Below, one piece after another: positions 36,010 to 42,380 of a stretch of 43,622 nt of DNA (the stretch's first letter is position 1; the number at the start of each line of letters is the position of its first letter). The stretch spans positions 1-43,622 of the forward strand of contig CAIRNJ010000052.1 of assembly GCA_903879915.1 (NCBI GenBank). The letters are read 5' to 3'. Source of the DNA: an uncultured Elusimicrobia bacterium (GTDB taxonomy: Bacteria > Elusimicrobiota > Elusimicrobia > Elusimicrobiales > UBA9959). The notes beneath the pieces are model-generated. The model did no database searches. It was not told the DNA's origin and was given only the letters and a program-made list of their open reading frames with translations. The position numbers and the translations under genes are program-made.

Positions 36010-36058
36010 AGGGGGTATCCAGGTAGCCTATACAATTTTTGCCGATTATTCAATAATT

Positions 36059-36192
36059 CGAAAGCAGCGCCAGAACCGCCTACACCTGGTACGCTTCCCC
36101 GGATGGCACCATACATTGCACCACCCCGCTTTAGCTCTTCACGAAATATTGTAGAATTGTCAATGAGAAATGCCGACGTAGCTCAGCGGTAG
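36059..36192 (+). pseudogene. 3' remnant of a related tyrosine integrase
   Basis: An open frame here ends ...APYIAPPRFSSSRNIVEL then SMRNADVAQR and TAG. The intact integrase at 41235-42329 ends ...APRIAPPLINAPINFVEL then the same SMRNADVAQR. The shared last ten residues come from the att repeat and tRNA, but APxIAPP and its spacing lie outside that repeat, so this is the tail of another copy. The 5' boundary is uncertain because the similarity fades before 36059. The rest of that gene and its element are gone. Confidence 0.6.
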
Positions 36193-36210
36193 AGCAACCG
36201 CCTTGTAAGC
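36149..36210 (+). repeat. Left att direct repeat of the integrative element
   Basis: 62 bp matching 42286-42347 with one difference (T at 36171 against C at 42308). It covers 23 bp of tRNA upstream sequence including TAGAAT and the first 39 bases of tRNA-Thr, to just past the anticodon. Crossover therefore lies within this block, most likely in the anticodon arm. Confidence 0.9.
36172..36210 (+). pseudogene. 5' fragment of tRNA-Thr(TGT)
   Basis: The first 39 bases of the tRNA-Thr at 42309 are repeated here exactly: acceptor 5' strand, D-arm and anticodon up to GC of the 3' anticodon strand. The sequence then departs (CCGCAGAAGC), so no tRNA can form. It is the half left behind when the element recombined into the gene. 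Confidence 0.9.
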
Positions 36211-36471
36211 CCGCAGAAGCATTCAGTTGGAGTGAGCCCGGCTCAGTTCCCCGTCGTAAACCCAAAACCTAATTTCGCCAGAGTAAGCCTGATTACGTTG
36301 GATTCAGTTGGCCGGATTGCACCAGGAATTGCACCACACTTGCCACCGTCAGAACTGGCCTAAATTACGGAGAGGGGGGACGGTCAGTGGTTAAGCCAGT
36401 AATGAGCGTACAGTAACCCCGAAACTTACGCAAGAGAATTCATCGCACCACCGTATACGGTAAAAAAACGC

Positions 36472-36843
36472 TCACTTGTTTAATGGAGTGCCTCCTGTTT
36501 TTGTAAATTTTATCACCGTGCCATGTACGCGGATTGTTTGCCGACACCAAAACGGGGGAAAAGCCCATGTCTCATGTTCCGCAACAGTATTAATAAGCGC
36601 ATCCCCCTTTTTTGACTCAACCGCCACGTCGATAGCCTCCCCTACTGAATAACTCGTGTCCAGGCTATCGCTTATAGGGATTACACACAAAAAATATCCA
36701 CGGCTACTCACACCCTTACCTGTCCCCAAGACTTCCATAGCGTCGGAAGAAAAGTTCATACTGGAAACCATTGGGGTCACATGTGTACAACCGGATAGCA
36801 ATAGGCAACAGATTATAAAACAATAACCTAAAATATTTTTCAC
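36472..36843 (-). CDS. Element-borne small lipoprotein, GTG start
   Basis: A 123-aa lipoprotein: the signal sequence ends in LLLSGC (Cys19). The mature part contains GKGVSSRGYFLCVIPISDS, then KKGDALINTV and a Cys-containing segment FPPFWCRQTIRVHG; two mature cysteines could pair. The DALIN segment and overall length resemble TRL-type small lipoproteins, but I do not claim the family. The start is a GTG at 36843 with AGGAGG 8 nt upstream. It lies in the AT-rich integrative element and is not needed for integration or replication, so it looks like a cargo gene acting at the host envelope. Confidence 0.68.
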   Translation of the reverse strand: MKNILGYCFIICCLLLSGCTHVTPMVSSMNFSSDAMEVLGTGKGVSSRGYFLCVIPISDSLDTSYSVGEAIDVAVESKKGDALINTVAEHETWAFPPFWCRQTIRVHGTVIKFTKTGGTPLNK

Positions 36844-36954
36844 TAATGAGCCCTCCTACACCGGAAACCTCTAATACGATATAATATAAAAAACCTATTA
36901 GGAAGGCACTCTCCTACAGCATAGTATTGGGCGAGTTTGGTTGCCACGAATGAA

Positions 36955-37086
36955 CTAAACTTTTTTCGCTTTTCCCATTATACGGGCAACATTTCCTGGC
37001 CCGATTGTTGTAAGGACAAGAAGGAGCCCTAGTAAAAGCCAGAAGCCCGAATCCAGTCGCACGTTTATGTCGCAATTAATCGGCAT
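36955..37086 (-). CDS. Possible 43-residue membrane peptide
   Basis: A short ORF starts inside the end of the RHH gene (ATG at 37086; overlap ATGCCGATTAA) and encodes 43 residues. One hydrophobic span, FWLLLGLLLVLTTIG (15-29), is followed by a basic tail GKAKKV, as in small single-span membrane proteins. There is no ribosome site of its own; translation would depend on coupling to the upstream gene. It could be a real accessory peptide or a chance ORF. Confidence 0.4.
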   Translation of the reverse strand: MPINCDINVRLDSGFWLLLGLLLVLTTIGPGNVARIMGKAKKV

Positions 37087-37300
37087 TTTTAAATATTCGG
37101 CAAGGGCTTATTAAACACCCCGGTGTTTCCGTGTTTGCCGCCTCCAAAATAACTTCCGGTTTTGCTTCCCGATTTTCCACAAATGAATTTGCCATTATTT
37201 CTATGGCTTTCATTTTGGGAATGTTCATTTTCTCCGACATTTCGGAAAGAATTTTATATACGCTTTCCGGAGCTTGAACTGCATACGTTTTTTTTCTCAT
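37076..37300 (-). CDS. Small ribbon-helix-helix-like regulator
   Basis: A 74-aa protein. The N-terminal half (KKTYAVQAPESVYKILSEM then SEKMNIPKMKAIEIMANSF) has the strand-helix-helix pattern of CopG/Arc DNA-binding proteins; the tail carries two cysteines. The ATG at 37300 has GGAGG 5-6 nt upstream; a longer ORF adds five residues. Two operator-like palindromes lie directly upstream (37313-37327 and 37344-37355), pointing to autoregulation. It may be an antitoxin or an element copy/lysogeny regulator; no toxin-like partner is evident apart from the small membrane ORF overlapping its end. Confidence 0.65.
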   Translation of the reverse strand: MRKKTYAVQAPESVYKILSEMSEKMNIPKMKAIEIMANSFVENREAKPEVILEAANTETPGCLISPCRIFKNAD

Positions 37301-37605
37301 AATCACCTCCGCCAAACATTATGTTTGTATATTAAATTACCAACAAACATTATGTCAATAAGGATTTTAAAAGGCTTACAACAACCCCACACAAATGCGG
37401 CCAAATCCATATTCATTAAATTACTTATTATTTTAAAACCCCAGTTTGCAGACAGGCCTCTCAATGGTCACAATTTAGTCGGTGGGCACAAGCACAAGCC
37501 CCATAATCCGGAACCAAGTAAAAAAATAGGTAGAATATATACCATTGGGGAAATATAAGATTAACAATCTTGGAGTTTGTGTCCCAAGAATCAGGAGGAG
37601 GGATA
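37301..37605. other. Divergent intergenic region inside the element
   Basis: It contains the operator-like palindromes at 37313-37355 near the minus-strand RHH gene and, at the other end, an AT-rich run with TAGAAT/TATATA (about 37531-37543), which may be the promoter of the lipoprotein gene at 37606. Nothing coding is seen. Confidence 0.5.
37313..37355 (-). promoter_or_regulatory. Twin operator-like palindromes before the RHH gene
   Basis: CAAACATTATGTTTG at 37313-37327 is a perfect 15-nt palindrome. CAAACATTATGT recurs at 37344-37355, 31 bp away, about three helical turns. The AT-rich spacer TATATTAAATTA between them could hold the promoter. The layout suits a dimeric autorepressor. Confidence 0.55.
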
Positions 37606-38061
37606 ATGAAAAAATTCTGGATAGGGGTTTTGTTCTTGGGATTGGTCGGTTGTGCTACAATGCCCGACGTGATGCTAAACACTCCATCTGGTAGACCAGA
37701 AGTAAGTATTCAGAATGCAACTAAAAAACAAGTGATGGATGCTATTATAAATCGGGAATTGTCTAAGTCCTGGGATTTGAAAAGCCAATCAGATTCACTT
37801 CTTGTGTTTTCTCACAAAGTTACGGGGTTTGCTGCGGCTTTAGCTTATGGGTCACAATATGACAGTACCCCAGAGCAGCGTGGGACATTTACTTTAGTTG
37901 ATTCGGGAAATGTAATTAGAGTTTTGCTTAAAGTTGAAATGGTAACAAATCCTGGCAGCGCGTATGAGCGCACTAGTGATGTGACACTTGGGAAAAATGC
38001 CGCACCGTTACAAACTACTTTAGAGGAAATAAAAGCTTCTTTAACACCTTTAAAAAAATAA
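37606..38061 (+). CDS. Element-borne lipoprotein, unknown function
   Basis: A 151-aa lipoprotein with signal sequence MKKFWIGVLFLGLVGC (Cys16). The mature protein begins with a segment PEVSIQNATKKQVMDAIINREL, then mixed strands (DSLLVFSHKV, GTFTLVDSGNVIRVLLKVEMV) and a final helix. I do not recognise the family; the layout resembles small outer-membrane lipoproteins with one alpha/beta domain. The ATG has GGAGG 8 nt upstream; an in-frame start at 37570 would bury the signal. Base use is far more AT-rich than host genes. It diverges from the minus-strand lipoprotein group and is a cargo candidate. Confidence 0.72.
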   Translation: MKKFWIGVLFLGLVGCATMPDVMLNTPSGRPEVSIQNATKKQVMDAIINRELSKSWDLKSQSDSLLVFSHKVTGFAAALAYGSQYDSTPEQRGTFTLVDSGNVIRVLLKVEMVTNPGSAYERTSDVTLGKNAAPLQTTLEEIKASLTPLKK

Positions 38062-38086
38062 CCCACGACAGCAATATACCCCCCAT

Positions 38087-38135
38087 GAGTCTGTCCGACA
38101 TAAGCCCAAGTTTTGGAGTTATGTCAGACAGGCTC
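38087..38135. repeat. Imperfect 17-bp inverted repeat
   Basis: GAGTCTGTCCGACATAA (38087-38103) and its near-complement (38119-38135) pair with two mismatches around a 15-base loop. No T-run follows, so it is not a typical terminator. It may be a small mobile palindrome or a protein-binding site. Confidence 0.6.
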
Positions 38136-38231
38136 CTAGGTCGCCGCGACCAGCGGTTTTATTGCCGGTGCTTTCTTTTGTCTTTGCCATTGAGGGCCGC
38201 CTTTTGAAGCCTTATTTGTTTTTGCAAATAA

Positions 38232-38261
38232 TTGGAGTTAATTGAGATAACAGGCTATAGA
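38232..38261 (+). promoter_or_regulatory. Possible promoter of the hypothetical gene at 38288
   Basis: TTGGAG, an 18-nt spacer and TATAGA, ending 26 nt before the ATG. Both hexamers match the sigma70 consensus at only four of six positions. Confidence 0.3.
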
Positions 38262-38287
38262 CTGGCAATGAATTACATCATAATCTT

Positions 38288-38989
38288 ATGACACTTGAAC
38301 CCAAAATACTGGCCTGTATTGATTGTCAATACCTCTCACAATTACGGCGCGGGGAAATGACCACAGCAGGCCCCTATAATGTCAATCCGGATGTGCGGAC
38401 ACAAATCCGGGACAACGCTTATAATTGGCGGGACAACAGCTTCTATTTTTATTGTAGACGTGGGGTATGGGTAGAGCGAACGAACGCCAGGAAAGCAGCG
38501 CGGCGCAAATTGCGAAGTGTAATAGTAGAGACCGACCAGGGGATCAAGCAACCCGCTTCCTGCGTTTTTAGTTTTTATACCCCGCGAATCAGTTTTCCGG
38601 ACATTATTACTTCCCCCAAAACGCCCACTCCATTAGCGTCCGGGGAAAAAATTAAATTGCGTTCTCAAAAAATCAGCTTTGACGACGAAACCGCAACAAT
38701 AACAATCGGGCAGTCCAAAATAAAATTACCCCCAAATAAATTTGAACATTGCTTTTGCCGCGTGATGTTTTCCAAAAAAGTCAACAAGGCCATTTCCTGG
38801 GAAACTGTATATGAGAAAGCAATAGGGAATGACGACGCCGTAATGGTTGGGCAAGCCATATCCGCCCAACAACAATGGCATCGAGTGTATGATATTGCCA
38901 AAGCAATTAATAACCGAATAAAAAAGGAAATGCACACCGATGACAAGTTGTTTACTTGCGGGGAAGATGCCATAGAAAGAAACTTTTAA
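38288..38989 (+). CDS. Element protein with possible C-terminal winged helix
   Basis: A 233-aa protein without signal or membrane spans. The last 100 residues (from ITIGQSKIKLPPNKFEHCF through ISWETVYEKAIG to IAKAINNRIKKEMH and LFTCGED) follow the order of a response-regulator-type winged helix: strand pair, helix, recognition helix, closing hairpin. The N-terminal half has CIDC near the start and no known fold. I cannot name a family. There is no ribosome site at 38288; an internal ATG at 38357 is preceded by GGGG and could be the true start. It precedes the replication genes and may regulate them. Confidence 0.6.
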   Translation: MTLEPKILACIDCQYLSQLRRGEMTTAGPYNVNPDVRTQIRDNAYNWRDNSFYFYCRRGVWVERTNARKAARRKLRSVIVETDQGIKQPASCVFSFYTPRISFPDIITSPKTPTPLASGEKIKLRSQKISFDDETATITIGQSKIKLPPNKFEHCFCRVMFSKKVNKAISWETVYEKAIGNDDAVMVGQAISAQQQWHRVYDIAKAINNRIKKEMHTDDKLFTCGEDAIERNF

Positions 38990-39032
38990 ATATTGACTCT
39001 ACTTGAGTCAACTAACGGTTTGTCATACTAAA

Positions 39033-39063
39033 GCCAGAGCAAAAACATGCTTTGGTTTTTTTA
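39033..39063 (+). terminator. Terminator before the replication genes
   Basis: Stem CCAGAGC/GCTTTGG (one G-T pair) with an eight-base loop followed by TTTTTTTA. It lies about 45 nt past the stop of the gene at 38989, so the replication module downstream has its own start site. Confidence 0.75.
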
Positions 39064-39114
39064 TTTTATGTGATGAGCAAAAAAGAATAGGTTGCGGTTA
39101 TAGAAAAGGAAATT

Positions 39115-39825
39115 ATGTCTAAACGCTTCACGGCAACAGATAAATGGGACCACCCGTGGTTCTCCCGGCTTTCAGATGCGGATAAGCTGTATTGGTTCTA
39201 CCTTTTGGATAAGTGCGACCATGCCGGGATATGGCGGGTCAACTGGCCCCTGGTAAAGTTTCATATTAAAGGGAAGATAAACCCGGATGCTTTCAAGGAT
39301 AGGGTTGTTGTGCTAAGTGCAGAGAAGTGGCACATCCCTGAATTCATCGCCTTCCAATACGGTGAGCTTAACCCTCAAAACAACGTCCACCGTTCTGTTA
39401 TCTCTATACTTGAGAAAGCAGGGGCTGCCCAGCCCCTACCTAGGTCCTTACAAGGACCTATGGATATGGATAAGGATAAAGTCGAAGATAAAGCTAAAAA
39501 TATTAAGAATAAGAGAACAGTAGCCCCTTTTACTTTGCCGGATTGGGTCCCCCCCGCTGCCTGGCAAGCCTACGTGGAAATGCGCACAAAAACCCGGAAG
39601 CCGATGACCGAGACGGCTATGGGTATAGCAATTAATAAATTATCTGATTTGAAGGAGCAAGGCTACGACCCGCAAAAGGTGTTAGAGCAGAGTATCTTCA
39701 ATTCCTGGCAGGGGCTTTTTCCTTTAAAAGACACCGGACAGCACAAGAGTGCGGCGGCCCCGATACCGGGGAAGTATGACCATGTAAGCATAAAAGCAGG
39801 AGGAAACAATAATGGAAAACGCTAA
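39115..39825 (+). CDS. Phage-type replication initiator (replisome organiser-like)
   Basis: A 236-aa protein. The N-terminal winged-helix region starts FTATDKWDHPWFSRLSDAD and continues LYWFYLLDKCDHAGIWRV, a pattern common in phage replication proteins that bind the origin. A charged hinge (MDMDKDKVEDKAKN) follows. The C-terminal domain (from about 140, PDWVPPAAWQAYVEMR to FNSWQGLFPL) resembles the DnaD/DnaT-like helicase-loading segment. AAAGGA lies 6 nt before the ATG. It overlaps the DnaC-like gene by 14 nt, the usual initiator-loader pair of temperate phages. This indicates that the element can replicate, or once could, using the host DnaB helicase. Confidence 0.82.
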   Translation: MSKRFTATDKWDHPWFSRLSDADKLYWFYLLDKCDHAGIWRVNWPLVKFHIKGKINPDAFKDRVVVLSAEKWHIPEFIAFQYGELNPQNNVHRSVISILEKAGAAQPLPRSLQGPMDMDKDKVEDKAKNIKNKRTVAPFTLPDWVPPAAWQAYVEMRTKTRKPMTETAMGIAINKLSDLKEQGYDPQKVLEQSIFNSWQGLFPLKDTGQHKSAAAPIPGKYDHVSIKAGGNNNGKR

Positions 39826-40558
39826 CAAATTCGGCGCGGACTTCCTGGAACGAATGGAAGAGAGATATAGAGAGAGGCGGGAGTTGGAGGCCAAAGCCCC
39901 AAAGTGCCCGGTATGTAACGGCCCCGTGTTGGATGGCGGCTGTGACTTATGTGCGGAAAGAGCCGAGCAAAAGCGCCGGAAGCAGGAGCAGGATGCGGCA
40001 CAGCGTGCACTGGATATACGGCGATTAGGCGGAGAGAGGGCTTACCGGGAGTTTACCCTTGAGGGGTACAAAAATAAACATGTCATTGACTTGTGCAACA
40101 GTTACCCGGCCAAAAACCTTTATATCTGGGGGTCGCCTGGTGTGGGTAAGACCCATCTTGCCACAGCCCTTGTGCGGCAGTATCAAGACGCGCGTGTGGT
40201 AAAGCCTCAGGACATATTCTGGGACTGCCGCGCCGCTAAGACCGTGGAGGAAGAGAGGGCGGTTGTGCATCGGTTTGTAAAGACGGGGCATCTGGTAATT
40301 GATGACCTGGGCATAGCCAAGAATACGGAATTTAATTCCTCCATCCTTTACCTGATACTGGACGGGCGCGACATGGCCGAACGCTCAGGCCTTATCATAA
40401 CAAGCAATCTTTCTCCGGGGGCTTTGTGTGCCCGCCTTGATGATGACCGCCTTCCATCACGCATCTTCGGAAGGGGCACTATCGCAATAGACCTGATGGG
40501 TGAGGATGGAAGGCTATATTCCAACAACAAACCTACTGGGAAAAAACTTGAGTTATAA
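39812..40558 (+). CDS. DnaC-like AAA+ helicase loader with zinc finger
   Basis: A 248-aa ATPase. An N-terminal helical region is followed by a zinc-binding CPVCNGPVLDGGCDLC (about 32-47). The AAA+ core has Walker A GSPGVGKTH (about 107-115), Walker B HLVIDDLG, sensor I in LIITSNLS and an arginine-finger candidate in LPSRIFGRG. It belongs to the DnaC/DnaI/IstB-like group; the neighbouring initiator and lack of a transposase favour helicase loading over IstB. The ATG at 39812 has AGGAGG 8 nt upstream inside the previous gene. Confidence 0.88.
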   Translation: MENANKFGADFLERMEERYRERRELEAKAPKCPVCNGPVLDGGCDLCAERAEQKRRKQEQDAAQRALDIRRLGGERAYREFTLEGYKNKHVIDLCNSYPAKNLYIWGSPGVGKTHLATALVRQYQDARVVKPQDIFWDCRAAKTVEEERAVVHRFVKTGHLVIDDLGIAKNTEFNSSILYLILDGRDMAERSGLIITSNLSPGALCARLDDDRLPSRIFGRGTIAIDLMGEDGRLYSNNKPTGKKLEL

Positions 40559-40559
40559 A

Positions 40560-40745
40560 ATGAACCAGCACAAGCTGATTGAAAAAGCATGCGAGATTTG
40601 CGGGCGGAAGTTTCCGGCCAGGGCTTCTGATAAGCGGGCGAACCGAGGCCGGGCATGCTCTTTTAGGTGCTCGGGGCGGTTAGGGGCCACCGCAAAGAAA
40701 AACCTCAACAAAGCGAAGCCGCGCACCCCTTACGCGCCGCTTTAG
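40560..40745 (+). CDS. Small zinc-finger-like protein
   Basis: A 61-aa basic peptide with four cysteines arranged CEIC(GRKFPARASDKRANRGRA)CSFRC, a treble-clef or HNH-like knuckle that could bind zinc and DNA. It begins 2 nt after the DnaC-like gene and is probably translated by coupling. A function in element replication or as an incomplete endonuclease cannot be separated from sequence; the catalytic His-Asn part of an HNH enzyme is missing. Confidence 0.6.
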   Translation: MNQHKLIEKACEICGRKFPARASDKRANRGRACSFRCSGRLGATAKKNLNKAKPRTPYAPL

Positions 40746-40790
40746 CGAGCGATTGGCAAAGTCAACTAGTAGCAGAAAAAGGAGCACACT

Positions 40791-40991
40791 ATGGAAAACC
40801 GGTTAATCGACATAAAGGAACTGTCGGCGTATATAGCAACGCCCGTAACTACGATATATGGTTACGTATACTCAAAAACAATTCCGGCCGACTGCATTAT
40901 AAGAATCGGCAGGAGGCTAAAGTTTGATAAGGCGGCGGTGGACCGGTGGATTAGCGGGATTGCTGCTGCTCAAGCCAACGCTCCAAAATGA
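40791..40991 (+). CDS. AlpA/excisionase-type HTH protein
   Basis: A 66-aa MerR-like winged HTH. The sequence reads RLIDIKELSAYIATPVTTIYG then YVYSKTIPADCIIRIGRRLK and FDKAAVDRWISG, the HTH_17 layout used by excisionases and AlpA activators of integrases. AAGGAG lies 8 nt before the ATG. In P4- and PICI-like elements this gene controls excision. Its 3' end overlaps by 41 nt a convergent small RHH gene on the other strand, so transcription of the two may interfere. Confidence 0.85.
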   Translation: MENRLIDIKELSAYIATPVTTIYGYVYSKTIPADCIIRIGRRLKFDKAAVDRWISGIAAAQANAPK

Positions 40992-41124
40992 ACTCAATTT
41001 GAGCGTTAAGGGTTCGATGCTCTTTTTGCGCGATAGCGGCCAAGGCTTTATACGTTGTCGCCGCAATTCTCAGCGGATAGGCGCTTCTCTTCGGCTTTGT
41101 CGGCTTAGTCTTCGGCGTGGTCAT
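40951..41124 (-). CDS. Arc-like RHH repressor, 57 aa
   Basis: A short antisense ORF of 57 residues. After a basic N terminus (TTPKTKPTKPKR) it reads SAYPLRIAATTYKALAAI then AQKEHRTLNAQIEFILERWL, the full strand-helix-helix of the Arc/CopG family with its typical 'R.LN.QI...L' second helix. It is convergent with the AlpA-type gene and divergent from the integrase gene, whose promoter is 44 nt away. Tandem ATATCACC words lie in that gap. It is therefore a good candidate for the integrase/excision repressor. There is no strong Shine-Dalgarno. Confidence 0.72.
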   Translation of the reverse strand: MTTPKTKPTKPKRSAYPLRIAATTYKALAAIAQKEHRTLNAQIEFILERWLEQQQSR

Positions 41125-41148
41125 ACAAATGAGTATATTTTATTTTAA

Positions 41149-41167
41149 ATATCACCGCAATATCACC
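41149..41167. promoter_or_regulatory. Tandem ATATCACC operator-like repeats
   Basis: ATATCACC at 41149-41156 and again at 41160-41167, 11 bp apart (one helical turn), directly touching the integrase -35 box. A related ATATCACT is at 41212-41219. Spaced direct words of this kind are usual for RHH dimers. Confidence 0.5.
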
Positions 41168-41196
41168 TTGACATTCACCTTTGTTGGCGTTATACT
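41168..41196 (+). promoter_or_regulatory. Consensus sigma70 promoter of the integrase gene
   Basis: TTGACA (41168-41173), a 17-nt spacer and TATACT (41191-41196): a near-perfect housekeeping promoter. Transcription should start near 41203, about 32 nt before the integrase ATG at 41235, which rules out the upstream TTG start at 41181. Confidence 0.85.
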
Positions 41197-41234
41197 ATAT
41201 ATGTCTGTTTGATATCACTTTGTATCATATCAAT

Positions 41235-42329
41235 ATGTCCGTATTTAAGAAGCGGGGGAGGTGGTGGATTTTATACCGGCTTGCCAACCGCAAGTGGAGA
41301 CGGGAGCCTGTCGGCACGAGTTATACTTTAGCCAAACAGGTTGAAGCGAAAAGAAAAGCCGAAGTGGCGGAAGGCCGTTTTTTCCCAGAGCGCAAGACAA
41401 ATAGACAGAACTTTCAGGAAATATCGGACAATTACTTTAAATTGCACGGCCAGAACCTACGCTCAAAATCATGGAGCCAGATGATGCCCCGCATTATCGC
41501 CGCCATTGGAGCAAAACCCATCGGCAACATAACGCCGCAGGATATTCAAGCCTTCTATAATCAACTGGAATCCACCTCATCGACCTCAACCGCGAACCGG
41601 CACTTGACCCTTATTAAGGCTATTTTCAACAAAGCCAAAGCGTGGGGCACTTTTCATGGGGAAAACCCTTGCGCGGCAGTAAAGAAGAAACGGGAGCCGA
41701 ACCACCGGCTAAGATACCTGTCAGAACCGGAAATAAAAACCCTGACGGAGAACTGCCACCCGCGCCTATACCCTGTTGTAGCCTGTGCCCTCATGACCGG
41801 CATGAGGCGGGGAGAACTACTAAATCTGGATTGGCGGGATATAGACTTCGGCAGCAACGTTATACAGATACTTAAATCAAAGTCCGGAAAGCCGCGAGAA
41901 ATACCAATGATGCCGACCCTGCGGGCTATTCTAGAGAACCTCGGTACCCCCCACACCGGAAACGTTTTCAACCTGCCCGCCATAATGCTCAGAAGGTACT
42001 TCGCAAGGGCCTTGGCGGCCTCCTCAATCACTTCTTTTCGTTTCCACGACCTTCGCCATACCTTCGCCTCTCATTTCGCCATGAAGGTCAAGGATATACC
42101 CGCCCTGCAAAAGATACTCGGTCACGCGAGTATTCAGATGACCATGCGATATGCCCACCTGAGCGACACCCACACGGCCGCGACGATGACTCAACTATCA
42201 AAGTCCATGCCGATTGCGCCTTGCACCACGCCTACCCAAATTGCACCCCGGATTGCACCACCCCTAATTAACGCGCCGATAAATTTTGTAGAATTGTCAA
42301 TGAGAAACGCCGACGTAGCTCAGCGGTAG
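41235..42329 (+). CDS. int: Tyrosine-type integrase ending inside tRNA-Thr
   Basis: A 364-aa site-specific recombinase. The order is an N-terminal arm-binding strand domain (SVFKKRGRWWILYRL), a SAM-like core-binding domain (about 65-150) and a catalytic domain with Arg in MTGMRRGELL, Lys in KSKSGKPREIPM, His-x-x-Arg in FHDLRHTFAS, His in ILGHASIQ and the Tyr nucleophile in MRYAHLS. The C terminus continues through the att repeat into the tRNA, with the TAG stop formed by bases of the tRNA D-arm (42327-42329). A near-consensus promoter lies upstream. No ribosome site is seen. Confidence 0.95.
   Translation: MSVFKKRGRWWILYRLANRKWRREPVGTSYTLAKQVEAKRKAEVAEGRFFPERKTNRQNFQEISDNYFKLHGQNLRSKSWSQMMPRIIAAIGAKPIGNITPQDIQAFYNQLESTSSTSTANRHLTLIKAIFNKAKAWGTFHGENPCAAVKKKREPNHRLRYLSEPEIKTLTENCHPRLYPVVACALMTGMRRGELLNLDWRDIDFGSNVIQILKSKSGKPREIPMMPTLRAILENLGTPHTGNVFNLPAIMLRRYFARALAASSITSFRFHDLRHTFASHFAMKVKDIPALQKILGHASIQMTMRYAHLSDTHTAATMTQLSKSMPIAPCTTPTQIAPRIAPPLINAPINFVELSMRNADVAQR
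42220..42260. repeat. Arm-type ATTGCACC repeats at the right end
   Basis: ATTGCACC at 42240-42247 and ATTGCACCA at 42252-42260, 12 bp apart, with a further TTGCACCA at 42221-42228. The same 12-bp spacing is seen inside the left end (36316, 36328) and outside it (36103, 36115). They lie within the integrase coding sequence (repeated IAP residues). Confidence 0.6.
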
Positions 42330-42347
42330 AGCAACCGCCTTGTAAGC
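42286..42347 (+). repeat. Right att direct repeat of the integrative element
   Basis: Matches 36149-36210 at 61 of 62 positions. It contains the -10 box TAGAAT (42289-42294), the tRNA 5' end and anticodon arm, and the last residues of the integrase. The intact tRNA is on this side. Confidence 0.9.
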
Positions 42348-42380
42348 GGTAGGTCGAGAGTTCAATTCTCTCCGTCGGCT
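42309..42380 (+). tRNA. tRNA-Thr (anticodon TGT)
   Basis: 72 nt folding as a cloverleaf: acceptor GCCGACG/CGTCGGC, D-arm GCTC/GAGC, anticodon stem ACCGC/GCGGT with loop CTTGTAA (anticodon TGT, reading ACA), variable AGGTC, T-arm GAGAG/CTCTC with TTCAATT loop. CCA is not encoded; a run of T follows. Its 5' half and -10 box lie in the att repeat, so after integration the gene uses promoter sequence supplied by the element. Confidence 0.95.

Follow-up and report, generated by a model that had tools for sequence, protein, structure and literature searches.

Contig CAIRNJ010000052.1 of an uncultured Elusimicrobia bacterium (NCBI GenBank assembly GCA_903879915.1), of which positions 1 to 43,622 were analyzed and are referred to here as the window, carries an AT-rich element of 6,137 bp bounded by a 62 bp direct repeat at a tRNA-Thr(UGU) gene. 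This is a genuine site-specific integrative element, because one copy of its repeat is half of a tRNA, the same site is unoccupied in related genomes, and yet other relatives carry different inserts there. We regard it as an integrative element of the tRNA 5'-half type, equipped with replication genes of phage type. In all likelihood it is a small and probably still mobile element of the Elusimicrobiota, a phylum with little-described mobile elements, whose integrase mediates recombination at the 5' half of tRNA-Thr(UGU).

The right copy of the repeat starts 23 bp upstream of tRNA-Thr(UGU) and ends at base 39 of the tRNA, and the left copy contains tRNA bases 1-39 only, with no tRNA called there by either ARAGORN or Rfam. 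As in other integrative elements of tRNA genes, one boundary therefore has the intact tRNA and the other a displaced piece of it, and an integrase is on board (PF00589, 2.6e-29). The G+C content is 0.40-0.52 inside the element versus about 0.6 outside. The original prediction, that a 62 bp repeat flanks an AT-rich integrative element at tRNA-Thr and that this element brings a replication module of its own, is thus borne out by the half-copy repeat, the integrase, and the O-like and DnaC-like genes described below. A 72 bp query with the tRNA matches just two places in the 3.37 Mb assembly (the right copy and the left half copy), such that this isoacceptor is apparently single-copy. The target and the attachment (att) copies are:

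36149-36210, + strand: left att copy, spanning the -10 box region plus the first 39 bases of tRNA-Thr; 61/62 identical to 42286-42347, not called as a tRNA.
42286-42347, + strand: right att copy, with the tRNA -10 box TAGAAT at 42289-42294; 61/62 identical to the left copy.
42309-42380, + strand: intact tRNA-Thr(UGU), the integration target and the only tRNA-Thr called (ARAGORN; Rfam, 75.7 bits).

A pair of native tRNA-Thr genes, one of two outcomes that the original prediction had named as fatal to it, is ruled out by the left copy being the 5' half of a tRNA only. That the repeat is such a pair or a duplication introduced by assembly hardly merits consideration: draft metagenome assemblies leave room for it, but the left copy is a half tRNA, and the site in relatives is either empty or differently filled.

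Relatives provide the context for this insertion. The tRNA-Thr(UGU) gene, usually followed by tRNA-Glu, is widely conserved across the family, and 23 of 29 such loci have neither an integrase match nor a half copy in the fetched flank, some of these flanks being short. The search for an empty site that had been proposed as a check was run, and eight genomes of the same genus (G045, G032, G037, G029, G048, G039, G040 and G044) have the tRNA with no adjacent integrase; in G045 the unoccupied site retains the downstream porin gene. Fixation of the element in all relatives without an empty site, the other outcome named as fatal, is ruled out by these loci. Genome G047 has the same neighbours as the window (ABC-F, 97%; porin, 95%) and shares its left end up to base 36337, followed by a different insert of 1.2 kb that has one secreted-protein gene and no integrase. 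A 4 kb insert in G053, also lacking an integrase, has the same left arm and carries DUF6880, Schlafen/AlbA_2 and HATPase_c_4 genes. Both inserts appear to resemble cis-mobilizable elements. We also note that the G053 insert (L056 4050-8250, contig G053:C26) is flanked by a repeat of at least 102 bp; because this repeat takes in part of a protease-like neighbour gene, host DNA seems to have been used to rebuild the right end of the insert.

The insertion site itself seems to have been used before, since the left border of the element retains the tail of an older integrase, together with arm-like sites, and G047 has this tail too (L055 5988-6098). An earlier element at this tRNA seems to have left it behind:

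36058-36189, + strand: older integrase C-terminal remnant, carrying arm-like sites at -68 and -56 and lying for the most part beyond the left end of the element; 62% identical over 43 amino acids to the integrase tail.

A more intimate relationship is seen between the integrase gene and its target. The integrase frame runs through the -10 box of the tRNA (TAGAAT, 42289-42294) and terminates on the TAG of the D-loop, within the 62 bp block. The sole mismatch between the att copies (T/C, at position 23) changes AAT to AAC, both of which encode asparagine in the integrase frame; because it is silent, the integrase protein would be identical in the integrated and circular forms. Since int and the tRNA overlap, transcription of int is expected to run on into the tRNA. 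The best promoter match of the region lies between arc and int, and the heptamer ATATCAC, present five times in the window, occurs three times around it in an arrangement conserved in G023. The simplest model is one in which a putative Arc-repressed int promoter would read on into the tRNA.

41235-42329, + strand: tyrosine integrase (PF00589, 2.6e-29); its frame crosses the tRNA promoter, its stop is the tRNA D-loop TAG, and its start is conserved in relatives.
41149-41218, no strand assigned: putative int promoter TTGACA-17-TATACT (41168-41196) among three ATATCAC words; an 11/12 promoter match, conserved in G023.

The ends of the element carry a second conserved feature. The heptamer TTGCACC occurs six times in the window, always on the + strand and always at the element ends or in the left remnant. 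These copies are putative arm-type sites of the integrase:

42221-42260, + strand: P arm, with TTGCACC at -88, -68 and -56 from the tRNA start; same positions in G023.
36317-36337, + strand: P' arm, a pair of TTGCACCA sites located +145 and +157 from the start of the half tRNA and spaced alike in five genomes.

In G023 the TTGCACC positions are exactly as in the window on both sides, and those of the left pair recur in G047, G053 (shifted by +1, with a longer D-loop) and G058. When the 59 genomes of the family were searched with one mismatch allowed, the left-pair pattern turned up in five, in every case at these element ends, and the remaining 54 lacked it; a reversed control also gave no match. 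This exact geometry is a simple DNA signature with which such elements can be found, including those without an integrase. The more distant G056 element (integrase 51% identical) lacks the left pair and has AATTTGGGTACAAA-like repeats at its ends instead. Among viral contigs the pattern gave 16 matches, of which one lies beside an integrase that is itself distant; these were treated as unrelated.

The most probable scenario is that the tyrosine integrase would recombine a 62 bp attP with the 5' half of tRNA-Thr(UGU), the common block ending in the anticodon arm, such that the element would insert upstream of the tRNA and provide both its 5' half and the upstream promoter region. The integrase probably binds the TTGCACC arms, of which the three P sites fall in the 3' end of int and the two P' sites within the left end of the element. 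The AlpA-like protein likely acts as excision factor, and repression of the strong int promoter probably falls to the Arc-like protein. The excised circle would replicate by means of an O-like initiator and a DnaC-like loader recruiting the host helicase, as in lambdoid phages. The sequence directly shows the boundaries, the unoccupied sites in relatives, the conserved geometry of the arms and the module exchange among relatives; binding by the proteins, excision, replication, regulation and the route of transfer are inferred from it. Several points weigh against this scenario. The host sequence is a draft metagenome assembly; the assignments of arm-site binding and of the AlpA and Arc roles derive from sequence; the orphan gene and the lipoproteins find no explanation in it; and the exact attP junction is absent from the viral contigs, with no excised circle seen.

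Use of the tRNA 5' half is uncommon. Islands of this type number 159 of 3,919 in Islander (PMC4383910), and the archaeal pTN3 integrases, which use the tRNA 5' half and leave a rebuilt tRNA to be expressed from the integrase promoter, have counterparts seldom met in bacteria (PMC8371274). The window element shares the 5'-half attachment site with the pTN3-like integrases and may share expression of the tRNA from the integrase promoter, but pTN3 integrases are split by integration, whereas that of the window stays intact. As in the Mx8 and SSV integrases (named in PMC4383910), the frame crosses the attachment site; the difference here is that the identical block includes the stop codon, so that integration leaves the protein unchanged. 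Sixty-two integrases on our tree have an adjacent tRNA, with equal numbers running into its 5' end (31) and converging on its 3' end (31), and such identity blocks as were found extend from either side to the anticodon region. Ten of the 5' cases have the integrase stop within the tRNA start or past it. The 5'/3' label is clustered on the tree, with five changes by parsimony, at least three of them forced by starred branches, compared to a mean of 21 when shuffled. The window integrase falls within an all-5' group of 12 rows that are mostly Elusimicrobiota (88% SH-aLRT) and within which a set of eight is starred. The tree leaves out related Elusimicrobiota integrases at tRNA-Gly (L067, with a 49 bp 3'-half repeat), which are beyond the distance limit. 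With both orientations among the recovered integrases, a switch of tRNA half by an integrase becomes a testable question.

The other genes of the element are:

36472-36843, - strand: small lipoprotein, DUF6567 (PF20205, 1.8e-7, over the cut-off), with a lipobox.
37076-37315, - strand: 79-amino-acid protein, ribbon-helix-helix (RHH)-like by eye only, with no significant family match.
37603-38061, + strand: small lipoprotein with a lipobox, a relative of phrog_3152 (1.3e-7), a family of unknown function.
38288-38989, + strand: orphan 233-amino-acid protein, no relative found.
39115-39825, + strand: phage O-like replication initiator (phrog_678, 1.1e-21), with N-terminal relatives in prophages and phages.
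39812-40558, + strand: DnaC-like helicase loader (phrog_50, 7.8e-30), an IstB/DnaC-type AAA+ protein.
40560-40745, + strand: small Cys-rich zinc-finger-like protein, with 63-74% identical genes directly upstream of the AlpA-like gene in the G019 and G022 elements.
40791-40991, + strand: AlpA-like HTH_17 protein, likely excision factor (PF12728, 5e-8; phrog_66, 7e-7), kept beside related integrases.
40951-41124, - strand: Arc-like repressor (phrog_228, 5e-5), 71% identical in G023.

This inventory agrees with the predicted integrase, AlpA, Arc, initiator, loader, zinc-finger and two lipoprotein genes, and departs from it for the RHH regulator. The two lipobox proteins are cargo of unknown role, and such cargo is less unusual than had been supposed, as single lipoproteins adjoin three related integrases (in G056, in G022 and at a tRNA-Phe locus). 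The 233-residue orphan has no relative in 295 genomes of the phylum, in the viral contigs or, by sequence, in the PDB, and fold prediction gave an unusable model. PADLOC matches to DrmD and mad1 look like generic AAA+ and helix-turn-helix similarity and were rejected as defence genes.

A decaying prophage or island remnant that has lost mobility is an improbable interpretation of this gene set. The element is small and lacks structural genes, relatives such as G022 have a broken integrase, and an older integrase tail lies at its left border; however, all of the main genes are open, the att copies are 61/62 identical, and the arm sites are intact on both sides.

Comparison with related elements shows that modules have been exchanged behind a constant end, in which the AlpA-like gene and the integrase gene are retained and, in several relatives, accompanied by one for an Arc-like protein. 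G023 encodes an integrase 70-71% identical to that of the window, at the same tRNA, with the same end position (-20) and beside an orthologous porin gene, and the G058 integrase is 68% identical. G056 contains an 11.7 kb tRNA-Thr element with 75 bp repeats at 96% and Prim-Pol, AlpA-like and integrase genes, and G022 has a 6.6 kb element at tRNA-Arg with a 39 bp repeat. The replication genes vary, being O-like and DnaC-like in the window, Prim-Pol in G023, G058 and G056, and Prim-Pol/D5 in G019. The cargo inside the left end varies also, with the DUF6567 lipoprotein in the window, PemK/MazF and a reverse transcriptase (RVT_1, L323 5469-6521, contig G023:C17) in G023, and an AbiEii-type pair in G058. 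Between the window and G023 or G058, DNA similarity is confined to the left end and the int/alpA end. Accessions for Elusimicrobia loci L105, L106 and L107 are CAIPTO010000137 (G058), WOVA01000033 (G018) and JAGVVD010000031 (G019), respectively. We propose, tentatively and with rather less than even confidence, a new family of Elusimicrobiota satellites or hitchhiking islands in which the integrase gene is head-to-tail with a probably essential tRNA, the D-loop TAG serves as its stop, and replication and cargo modules are swapped behind a fixed attachment architecture.

Two accounts of how the element travels concern the transfer route only and are variants of the integrative element described here. 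The first, that it is a minimal satellite in the manner of PICMI, P4 or PICI, in which a helper phage would trigger excision, its own initiator and loader would replicate it, and the helper would package it with no packaging gene needed, is a credible possibility that falls somewhat short of an even chance. Its size and layout speak for a satellite, since genes for an integrase, an AlpA-like protein and replication lie within 6.1 kb, as in PICMI115 at 6,110 bp (PMC10803314). The phage-type initiator and loader pair is shared with prophages of the phylum, in which O-like relatives (G277, G200 and G089) precede a DnaC-like gene and terminase, Erf or tail genes are also present. In the related G056 element, a 178-amino-acid protein (L063 3301-3834) matches a small terminase weakly, although over nearly its full length (phrog_4102, 2e-4), and this would be in keeping with a PICI-like satellite. 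The satellite claim fares less well in that the host assembly has no convincing terminase and no helper is known, and the nearest relatives by integrase, G023 and G058, have a TrwC/MobF relaxase gene nearby. A search for a resident helper prophage with a terminase profile gave only a weak match, and the same profile also matches 11 of 14 control genomes. If correct, the satellite account would describe a minimal satellite in the Elusimicrobiota.

PICMI satellites of Vibrionaceae are the closest known layout, likewise about 6.1 kb long and encoding an integrase, an AlpA-like regulator and a replication protein but neither packaging nor capsid genes (PMC10803314). They differ in that they lie next to fis and carry a primase, whereas this element lies at a tRNA 5' half and has the O-like/DnaC-like pair in place of the primase; the defining site and the primase of the core are thus both lacking. 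P4 and PICI satellites also have an integrase, an AlpA-like regulator and their own replication genes. However, as had been predicted, Pfam and PHROG profile matches reveal no packaging, packaging-redirecting or capsid-modifying gene among the element proteins, an absence also seen in PICMIs (PMC10803314).

The second account, in which conjugation would mobilize the element in trans as a genomic island akin to integrative and mobilizable elements but devoid of a relaxase, strikes us as unlikely. It draws on the TrwC/MobF genes near the G023 (71%) and G058 (68%) integrases, which are of the same type as that of the window, and integrative and mobilizable or cis-mobilizable elements also offer a parallel for the integrase-less G047 and G053 inserts with the same left end. 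Against it, no relaxase, origin of transfer (oriT) or conjugation gene is seen in the window element (oriT not being searchable), the host assembly has no TrwC match, and the G023 and G058 elements, whose limits are unclear as they are split over contigs, have no DNA in common with it beyond the two ends. Nor is an oriT shared with the relaxase-bearing relatives apparent, given this same lack of similarity.

Among other observations, we note that G058 contains a 36 bp, 94% copy (1367-1402 of L104, contig G058:C106) of the 5' part of a tRNA-Thr(CGU) gene (1501-1572), about 130 bp upstream of it. A 5'-half element that has since been lost may have left this trace at a further threonine tRNA. Just before related integrases in G041, G047 and G051 (L069 8405-9433, and also L070 and L071) there is a DNA methyltransferase-like gene with an AlpA-like C-terminal part, in which a modification enzyme may have become fused to an excision factor.

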